Positions 2,951-23,165 of a stretch of 64,000 nucleotides of DNA are shown piece by piece. The DNA is from Candidatus Nitrosocosmicus arcticus (GTDB taxonomy: Archaea; Thermoproteota; Nitrososphaeria; Nitrososphaerales; Nitrososphaeraceae), in NCBI RefSeq assembly GCF_007826885.1, contig NZ_ML675585.1, forward strand, positions 1 through 64,000, given 5' to 3'. Numbering within the stretch: the stretch's first letter is position 1; every line of letters begins with the position of its first letter. The translations under genes were made by a program, and so were the position numbers. The notes beneath the pieces were generated by a model, which made no database searches, was not told the DNA's origin, and was given only the letters and a program-made list of their open reading frames with translations.

Positions 2951-3301
2951 TCAAATTACTTCTATAGATTCTCTAGAATAGCCCTTGGTCAACAAAAATT
3001 CAGTTACTTTGGATCTATGATCCCCTTGCAATACGATCATCCCATTTTTTGCGGTTCCACCTGTCCCTATGGTCTTTTTTAATTCATGAGCAATTGATTC
3101 CATTTTTTCTTGATCGGTAAACCCTTTGATGTTTGTTACTCGTTTACCTCGCTTAATTACGTATAGTTGAACAATTATTTTAATCTCATCTTCATCGAGT
3201 TTTTTTAATAAATCGTCAAAAGAATTCTCGTCTGCGACTGCAAATGGTTCTATTCTATTTTTTTTAGAACTTACCGGTTTCTCTTTTTTTATCTCTGATA
3301 T
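2951..3301 (-). CDS. Translation initiation factor aIF1 (SUI1/eIF1 family), apparent ATA start
   Basis: The frame encodes the SUI1 domain: IKIIVQLYVIKRGKRVTNIK, a central helix, then KTIGTGGTAKNGMIVLQGDH with the invariant GTGG and GDHR, ending RESIEVI and TGA. aIF1 binds the 30S P-site region and monitors start-codon pairing. No ATG, GTG or TTG occurs in frame between the upstream stop (3314-3316) and the domain core; the first Met codon lies inside the fold. An ATA at 3301 gives MSEIKKEKPVSS and lies about 26 bases after a TATA-like box, as expected for a leaderless message. Family call is firm; the start is inference. A base error in the assembly is the main alternative. Confidence 0.85.
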   Translation of the reverse strand: MSEIKKEKPVSSKKNRIEPFAVADENSFDDLLKKLDEDEIKIIVQLYVIKRGKRVTNIKGFTDQEKMESIAHELKKTIGTGGTAKNGMIVLQGDHRSKVTEFLLTKGYSRESIEVI

Positions 3302-3320
3302 ACTGATTACTATTTAGTGA

Positions 3321-3331
3321 TTATATTTATT
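3321..3331 (-). promoter_or_regulatory. TATA-like box of aIF1
   Basis: On the minus strand an A-run is followed by TAAATATAAT. Its centre is about 26 bases upstream of the ATA proposed as the aIF1 start, the normal archaeal spacing from TATA box to transcription start. This would make the mRNA leaderless and place the ATA at its very 5' end. Confidence 0.4.
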
Positions 3332-20905: not shown

Positions 20906-22204
20906 ATGACCGATATAACATTTGATAAATCACGTATTCTATTTGAAAAAGCATCCAAAATGATTCCAGGAGGGGTTAATAGTCCAGTCAGATATTTTCA
21001 ACCACATCCATTTTTTGTTGAATCTGCCAATGGAAGTAGACTATTTACCAATGATGGTGATGTATTAATTGATTATTGCTTGGGTTACGGATCAGTTTTT
21101 CTAGGACATGGTAATCAACAAATAGGCTCTGAAATAAAGAGTCAGATAGACAAAGGAAATTTGTTTTGTGCGCCTACAGAAAAGGAGACTCAATTAGCGG
21201 AAATTTGTTCCAAAATAATTCCATGTGCCGAAATGGTAAGAATTATGAATACTGGAGCTGAGGCAACGATGCATTCTATTCGCTTAGCAAGAGCATTTAC
21301 AAGAAAAACAAAGATAATAAAACTTGAGGGCGGGTATCATGGCGCTTTTGATTATGTCCTAAATAAAGCTGGTTCAGGGGCAGCCGATCAAGAATATTCT
21401 GACGGCATACTAACAGAGAGTGCCTCAAAAACTATTACCGTTCCATATAATGATATCGAGTCATTGCAATCAGTGATAGACAATGAACAAAATCACAATG
21501 ACATAGCTTGTATAATAGTTGAACCCGTTATGGCTAATACCGGCCTTATTCTTCCTGAAAAAGATTATCTTAACAGTATTCGAAACCTAACTAAACAAAA
21601 CAATATAGTTTTGATATTTGATGAAGTGGTAACCGGATTTAGATTAGCCTTAGGTGGAGCAAGCGAATTCTTCGGCATAAAACCAGATATTGCTACATTT
21701 GCCAAAACTTTGGGAAATGGATACCCTATTTCACTTATCGCAGGCAGGAGAGAAATATTATTGGGATTAGCTCCTAGTGGGTCAGTATATCAAGCAAGTA
21801 CATTCGCTGGAAATCCAATTTCAGTAACAGCTGCCCTGAAAACTTTAGAAATCTTAATTGACGAAAAGAATACCATCTATCCTAAAGTAGCCAGAACTTG
21901 TGACAAATTAGTTGAAGCAGTAAGAAACATGGTACAAGACAAAAAAATTGACGTTATTATAAATTCTATTGGTTCCATGTTTCAATTGTTTTTTTCTGAT
22001 AAAATAATAAGAAACTATTATTCAGTAAAATCATCAAATACTAAGTTATTTATGAACATGTTTAGAATATTACTCACAAAAGGTGTATTTATTCCACCAT
22101 CCCCATTTGAAACCTGTTTTATTTCAACTCAGCATAACGAGGAAGATCTTGAAAAAACTTTAGATGCTTATGAAACCGCATTATCCAGGGTGAAAAATTA
22201 TTAA
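20906..22204 (+). CDS. hemL: Glutamate-1-semialdehyde 2,1-aminomutase
   Basis: PLP enzyme converting glutamate-1-semialdehyde to 5-aminolevulinate, the step between HemA and HemB. The 432 residues are full length: MIPGGVNSPVR, NTGAEATMHSIRLARAFT, KLEGGYHGAFD, FDEVVTGFRLALGGA, and the PLP lysine in FAKTLGNGYP (about 270). It is the first gene of hemL-hemC-cobA-hemD. Its TAA (22202-22204) overlaps the proposed ATT start of hemC, so the two are translationally coupled. Confidence 0.95.
   Translation: MTDITFDKSRILFEKASKMIPGGVNSPVRYFQPHPFFVESANGSRLFTNDGDVLIDYCLGYGSVFLGHGNQQIGSEIKSQIDKGNLFCAPTEKETQLAEICSKIIPCAEMVRIMNTGAEATMHSIRLARAFTRKTKIIKLEGGYHGAFDYVLNKAGSGAADQEYSDGILTESASKTITVPYNDIESLQSVIDNEQNHNDIACIIVEPVMANTGLILPEKDYLNSIRNLTKQNNIVLIFDEVVTGFRLALGGASEFFGIKPDIATFAKTLGNGYPISLIAGRREILLGLAPSGSVYQASTFAGNPISVTAALKTLEILIDEKNTIYPKVARTCDKLVEAVRNMVQDKKIDVIINSIGSMFQLFFSDKIIRNYYSVKSSNTKLFMNMFRILLTKGVFIPPSPFETCFISTQHNEEDLEKTLDAYETALSRVKNY
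22188..22193 (+). promoter_or_regulatory. Shine-Dalgarno-like GGGTGA before hemC
   Basis: GGGTGA inside the end of hemL matches the archaeal anti-Shine-Dalgarno and ends 6 bases before the ATT at 22200. This spacing favours that ATT as the hemC initiation codon. Confidence 0.5.
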
Positions 22205-23165
22205 AGAAATAGTTGTTGCTACGAGGGCTAGCAAACTAGCCACGCATCAAACTAATTTAGTCATTTCATCCTTGAGGGAAATCGAACCAGACCTAAAGAT
22301 TAGAATGGACAAAGTTACTACGAAAGGTGATAGAGATAGCAGACCATTTTATGTAATCAATCAAACTGGAGTATTTGAAAAAGAAGTGAATGAAAAAGTA
22401 CTTCGGTATAAAGCTGATTTTGCAGTACATAGTCTTAAAGATCTTCATGCAGGCATATCGGAAAAGTTAGTAGTTGCATGTATTCCTAAAAGAGAAAGGC
22501 CAAACGATGTTTTCATAAACAGTATAAACAACTACAAGCTTCATCAGCTAGAAAAAGATTCCATAATAGGAACAAGTAGTATTAGAAGAGCCATACAAAT
22601 CAGAACCAAGTATCCAAAATTAAGGGTCAAGTCAATTAGGGGCAATATAGAAACAAGAATAAACAGATCAAAAGAAAATCAATACGCTGGAATAATCTTA
22701 GCAGAAGCAGGAATTGAGAGATTAGGTATGAAAAATCAGATCACACAAAGACTAAGCATTCAAAGTTTTACACCAGTCCCGGGACAAGGAGCGCTTGCAA
22801 TTGTTTGTAGAAAAGATGACAAAGATCTGTTAAAAATGCTAAAGCGAATTGAACACAAGACCTCATATAAAGAAATCCAGGCTGAAAGATCCCTTACAGA
22901 AAGTATTGGAGCCGGTTGCACAGTTCCAATGGGAGCGTTAGCCACTTTAAAAAACAAGGATAGATTAATGACACTTTTTGCCGTAGTTTATTCGCTAGAC
23001 GGAAGAAAATCAATCAAAGTAAAGAAACAATATAATGCTGCTTATCCACGAAAATTGGGTCAAATGGTGGCAGAAGTATTAATATCAAAAGGAGCTAAAG
23101 AAATAACGAAAGAATGGAATAATACTAGTATGAATATCGATACACTAGATGAGTTGATAGAATGA
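22200..23165 (+). CDS. hemC: Hydroxymethylbilane synthase (porphobilinogen deaminase), apparent ATT start
   Basis: Polymerises four porphobilinogens. The frame reads IKEIVVATRASKLATHQTN, then TKGD, ADFAVHSLKDL, GTSSIRRAIQI, RGNIETRI, PGQGALAI and the dipyrromethane-cofactor Cys in GAGCTVPMG. The conserved ATRxSKLA lies upstream of the first usable TTG (22272), so a TTG start would delete essential residues. Upstream the frame meets a TGA at 22191; only ATT codons (22197, 22200) are available. ATT 22200 gives MKEIVVATR. About 321 residues. Its TGA overlaps the cobA ATG. The enzyme call is firm; the start codon is inferred. Confidence 0.93.
   Translation: MKEIVVATRASKLATHQTNLVISSLREIEPDLKIRMDKVTTKGDRDSRPFYVINQTGVFEKEVNEKVLRYKADFAVHSLKDLHAGISEKLVVACIPKRERPNDVFINSINNYKLHQLEKDSIIGTSSIRRAIQIRTKYPKLRVKSIRGNIETRINRSKENQYAGIILAEAGIERLGMKNQITQRLSIQSFTPVPGQGALAIVCRKDDKDLLKMLKRIEHKTSYKEIQAERSLTESIGAGCTVPMGALATLKNKDRLMTLFAVVYSLDGRKSIKVKKQYNAAYPRKLGQMVAEVLISKGAKEITKEWNNTSMNIDTLDELIE

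Follow-up and report, generated by a model that had tools for sequence, protein, structure and literature searches.

The window, by which we mean the whole 64-kb stretch of Nitrosocosmicus DNA analysed here, carries on its minus strand a short reading frame for a SUI1-domain protein (Table 1). The frame is closed upstream by an in-frame TAA (3316-3314), after which the minus strand reads ATA GTA ATC AGT ATA TCA GAG ATA AAA. A preliminary description of the locus had held that no ATG, GTG or TTG precedes the SUI1 domain core, and reading the frame confirmed this: every in-frame canonical codon lies deep within the domain, the first being an ATG at 3103 that would leave 50 aa. The product matches PF01253 (SUI1) with 58.4 bits against a cut-off of 25.5 (E 1e-15). 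Among solved structures, the profiles that it matches best are those of archaeal SUI1 homologues, some of them aIF1 chains in initiation complexes. Binding to the small subunit and checking of the start codon are putative functions of the product.

Table 1. Features of the SUI1 locus and of hemC in the window.
Feature	Position	Strand	Basis
SUI1-domain protein (aIF1 paralogue), 116 aa counted from ATA	2951..3301	minus	PF01253 match, dN/dS
ATA, predicted start codon	3299..3301	minus	invariant in 14/14 orthologues
N-terminal extension, residues 2-26, ahead of NSF motif	3224..3298	minus	evolves as translated sequence
Stop codon TGA	2953-2951	minus	ends SUI1 frame
In-frame TAA closing the SUI1 frame upstream	3314..3316	minus	frame reading
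TATA box ATAAATAT, -29 from ATA	3323..3330	minus	position relative to genus-wide peak
hemC	22194-23165 (region described, 22189-23165)	plus	no canonical start in-frame ahead of conserved N-terminus

The same description had named the gene aIF1, an identification that we revise. The genome holds two SUI1 genes, and the bona fide aIF1 is the copy on contig C18, which has the N-terminal Cys (Zn-knuckle) motif, an ATG start and a score of 122.4 against the NCBIfam archaeal aIF1 model NF002096 (cut-off 98). The window gene lacks the Cys motif and scores 70.8, below that cut-off; judged by these features, it is a second SUI1 paralogue and not the canonical aIF1 of the cell. Canonical aIF1 starts with ATG at all 30 loci read in the family. 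The paralogue is present in 14 of 15 Nitrosocosmicus genomes, its close matches bearing a name are mostly Candidatus Nitrosocosmicus, and its N-terminal extension is partly missing in clade B (L013-L016). As a separate observation, genome G002 carries an extra canonical aIF1 (G002:C202:909-1211) that is 79% identical to the one native to the genus; the contig is probably foreign to the bin.

We compared the N-terminus of the paralogue across the genus; three of the 14 genomes that carry it are single-contig. An ATA occupies one shared alignment column in all 14 orthologues, followed by TCA, TCC, CCA or TTC and then by GAG or GAA, and in most of them in-frame stops lie shortly upstream; none of the 14 has a canonical start at this N-terminus. 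The gene is under strong purifying selection (dN/dS 0.015-0.09 across the 14 orthologues), with synonymous sites near saturation between clades, and in clade A the stretch from the ATA to the NSF motif shows pN < pS. Among invariant columns of the same alignment, none of the seven internal Ile columns and only 5 of 59 degenerate columns overall retain a single codon. The ATA does, so its conservation is not due to chance, and because 14 of the 15 genomes carry it at the same column, it is not a sequencing error either. The ATA is thus very probably the start codon of the paralogue, as the preliminary description had proposed for position 3301; the alignment of relatives that it called for yielded no ATG at this column in any of the 14 orthologues. 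Other routes into the frame were considered and rejected. Upstream in-frame TTG (L005, L012) and ATG (L014) codons are not common to other species and miss the predicted 5′ end, being placed farther upstream than the TATA box, in it or only a few bases from it; no ATG in another frame, from which a frameshift might start, is conserved between the box and the ATA. In the five sequences folded we saw no conserved downstream hairpin of the kind that might promote initiation at a near-cognate codon.

Promoter geometry points to the same codon. In 14 of 14 orthologues the ATA is preceded, at -28 or -29, by a TATA-like box, which reads TTAAATAT or TTATATAG in the relatives and is hence within the range of ~26-30 nt upstream of the start that marks leaderless mRNAs. 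In 349 upstream sequences of other genes, taken from Nitrosocosmicus genomes, the distribution of TATA-like motifs has a sharp maximum at -29/-28 relative to the start codon, as frequent leaderless transcription would lead one to expect. Since the spacing of the box equals this genus-wide peak, the ATA falls at the predicted 5′ end, and the mRNA of the paralogue would be leaderless. The leaderless promoter geometry suggested earlier is supported, with one correction: the box is where a TATA-like element had been noted, at a distance of -29 and not "about 26".

A weak start in the corresponding gene extends beyond the genus. Almost all of the SUI1 paralogues without the Cys motif that were read in other genera of the family (L017-L061, L198-L213) start with GTG, most often as GTG-TCN; the exceptions are L027/L203 and L028, where an ATG is available, and L202, with TTG. 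Those starting with GTG have a CTTTTGAG/CTTTTCAA-type box about 29-31 nt upstream, again a leaderless position. On a protein tree of 89 columns the Nitrosocosmicus paralogues form a clade on a long branch, and short flanks outside the genus contained no kept gene neighbours. If the genes are orthologues, a weak leaderless start would be a feature of the family, taken one step further in the genus, from GTG to ATA.

To gauge how rare such starts are, we compared partial genomes of the genus with each other over as much as 1 Mb, a survey used in place of a codon-score survey that was too weak for short genes. Among 242 conserved ORF pairs, a canonical start lay close to the N-terminus in both members of 226, in one member of 11 and in neither member of five. 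Two of these five are apparent antisense shadows; the others are real genes, namely the SUI1 paralogue, hemC and a nucleotide-cyclase-like gene, and the same three emerged from a further comparison. Only the SUI1 paralogue has ATA at the start position. Where the start column is shared, usage is 218 ATG, 105 TTG and 26 GTG.

In hemC, no canonical in-frame start precedes the conserved N-terminus in 14 genus genomes; the start column reads ATT, TTT or GTT there and ATG in most family relatives compared. It overlaps the end of hemL at its stop, and GGTGA lies ~6 nt ahead of it in 13 of the 14. Initiation at a near-cognate codon with coupling to hemL is one possibility, frameshifting another. The cyclase-like gene (L229-L238; G013:C1:1338999-1339559 and orthologues) has, in most genus genomes with a readable start, no conserved start candidate other than GGTGA followed by ATT or ATC and TCN; locus L238 has an additional in-frame GTG. 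Near-cognate starts thus appear, from these alignments, to occur in Nitrosocosmicus beyond the SUI1 paralogue. A scan of the 64-kb window for GGTGA-N6-ATT gave no more matches than chance, and the motif alone is therefore no finder of such genes.

What might a fixed AUA achieve? According to PMC6237735, aIF1 of S. solfataricus destabilises non-AUG initiation complexes, and the AUG of eIF1, which stands in a poor context, is repressed by eIF1 itself, a form of autoregulation. Transcription from the TATA box 28-29 nt upstream would set the mRNA 5′ end at the AUA or within 1-2 bases of it, and initiator tRNA-Met would read the AUA in vivo with a third-position mismatch. Given that aIF1 destabilises complexes on non-AUG codons, high aIF1/SUI1 activity should depress translation of the paralogue, and a fall in that activity should raise it. 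The outcome would be a negative-feedback loop, if the paralogue acts on itself, or a cross-regulatory loop, if canonical aIF1 acts on it, set in either case by start-codon stringency; we thus recast the autoregulation first suggested for this gene as auto- or cross-regulation. We give even chances to the reading that the mRNA is leaderless and AUA-initiated and that start-codon stringency, as set by aIF1/SUI1, governs its translation. In its favour are an ATA and a TATA box each kept in 14 of 14 orthologues, purifying selection, and canonical copies that hold ATG in 30 of 30 loci; one of only three genes without a canonical start among ~240 conserved ones encodes a start-fidelity-factor paralogue. 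The family-wide GTG, a weak leaderless start in the corresponding paralogue, makes such regulation more plausible. Against it stand the missing Zn-knuckle, the score below the NF002096 cut-off, an orthology to the family's GTG paralogue that neither the tree nor gene order establishes, and the non-canonical starts of hemC and the cyclase-like gene, which mean that the start codon alone is no proof of a feedback loop. In H. volcanii, according to PMC3828320, a second aIF1 is dispensable, with growth differences that are at most very small, and may not act in initiation; the paralogue need not, therefore, be a full initiation factor.

The strongest competing account accepts the ATA as start codon and has it merely hold a low-dose paralogue constantly low, with no feedback from aIF1/SUI1; we consider this a substantial possibility, somewhat short of an even chance. 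The GTG of most of the family and the ATA of the genus would be consistent with weak translation being preferred in general, and unrelated genes have non-canonical starts as well, but a weak promoter would be a simpler route to the same effect, and the ATA has stayed fixed despite synonymous saturation in the gene of a start-fidelity-factor paralogue. Generally relaxed start selection in Nitrosocosmicus, with the ATA as one of several neutral drifts from ATG or GTG, is very improbable: hemC and the cyclase-like gene do lack canonical starts, yet only three of ~240 conserved genes are affected, the hemC codon drifts among ATT, TTT and GTT where that of the SUI1 paralogue does not, and canonical aIF1 retains ATG. 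Initiation at an internal canonical codon is very improbable. An in-frame ATG at GDM/GGM in clade B would retain the SUI1 core, and the window offers the ATG at 3103, but a protein begun at 3103 would lack both the first strands and the basic loop, and clade B has no counterpart of this ATG; moreover, the N-terminal stretch evolves as protein and the position of the TATA box indicates the ATA. Sequencing error or a decaying pseudogene, as a missing canonical start in a draft assembly might suggest, is refuted by the low dN/dS and by the finding of an identical ATA in 14 genomes, of which three are single-contig; its probability is negligible.

Stringency-dependent translation of the paralogue could reach further, as a regulon in which the leaderless-AUA paralogue tunes stringency together with its own level and reads out hemC (AUU/UUU/GUU) and the cyclase-like gene (AUU/AUC), both with near-cognate starts preceded by a GGTGA Shine-Dalgarno; this extension seems to us rather unlikely. 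More broadly, the ATA kept in all 14 carrier species suggests that output of the paralogue is set by the strictness of start-codon checking, on an mRNA which, if leaderless, can receive no help from scanning or Shine-Dalgarno pairing. Gene callers restricted to ATG, GTG and TTG would miss or truncate such genes. Within the open-licence literature searched, we found no expression or proteome paper naming the window gene, and no example of an archaeal start-fidelity factor controlled via its own weak start.

Canonical archaeal aIF1 shares with the window paralogue the SUI1 domain, with an eIF1-like basic loop (KRGKRVT), but is encoded by a separate gene with an N-terminal Zn-knuckle and an ATG. 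H. volcanii likewise has a second SUI1 gene, HVO_B0284, beside its essential aIF1, although the available part of the source mentions no non-canonical start for it, unlike the ATA of the Nitrosocosmicus paralogue. Control of a start-fidelity factor through the weak start of the mRNA that encodes it occurs in bacteria (infC) and in eukaryotes (eIF1), and what marks this type, a weak or non-canonical start conserved across species, is found here in 14 of 14 orthologues. IF3 represses its own infC AUU start and the GTC start of Streptomyces sigR (PMC5472188). The sigR start is similarly a conserved non-canonical codon read out by a fidelity factor, its product being a sigma factor where the window gene encodes an initiation-factor paralogue. 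With E. coli infC the window gene has in common a start-fidelity-type product and a conserved near-cognate start; infC, however, is bacterial, Shine-Dalgarno-leadered and autoregulated from AUU, whereas the window gene is archaeal, predicted to be leaderless and AUA-initiated, and a paralogue whose main factor keeps ATG, with feedback only proposed. Eukaryotic eIF1, itself a SUI1 protein, works on the same principle, in that its mRNA begins translation at a weak start. The weakness of that start resides in the context of an AUG, whereas the window gene departs from the canonical codons altogether and would have no leader to scan. The genus-wide AUA of the SUI1 paralogue therefore offers a directly testable archaeal counterpart to both systems, on a predicted leaderless mRNA.
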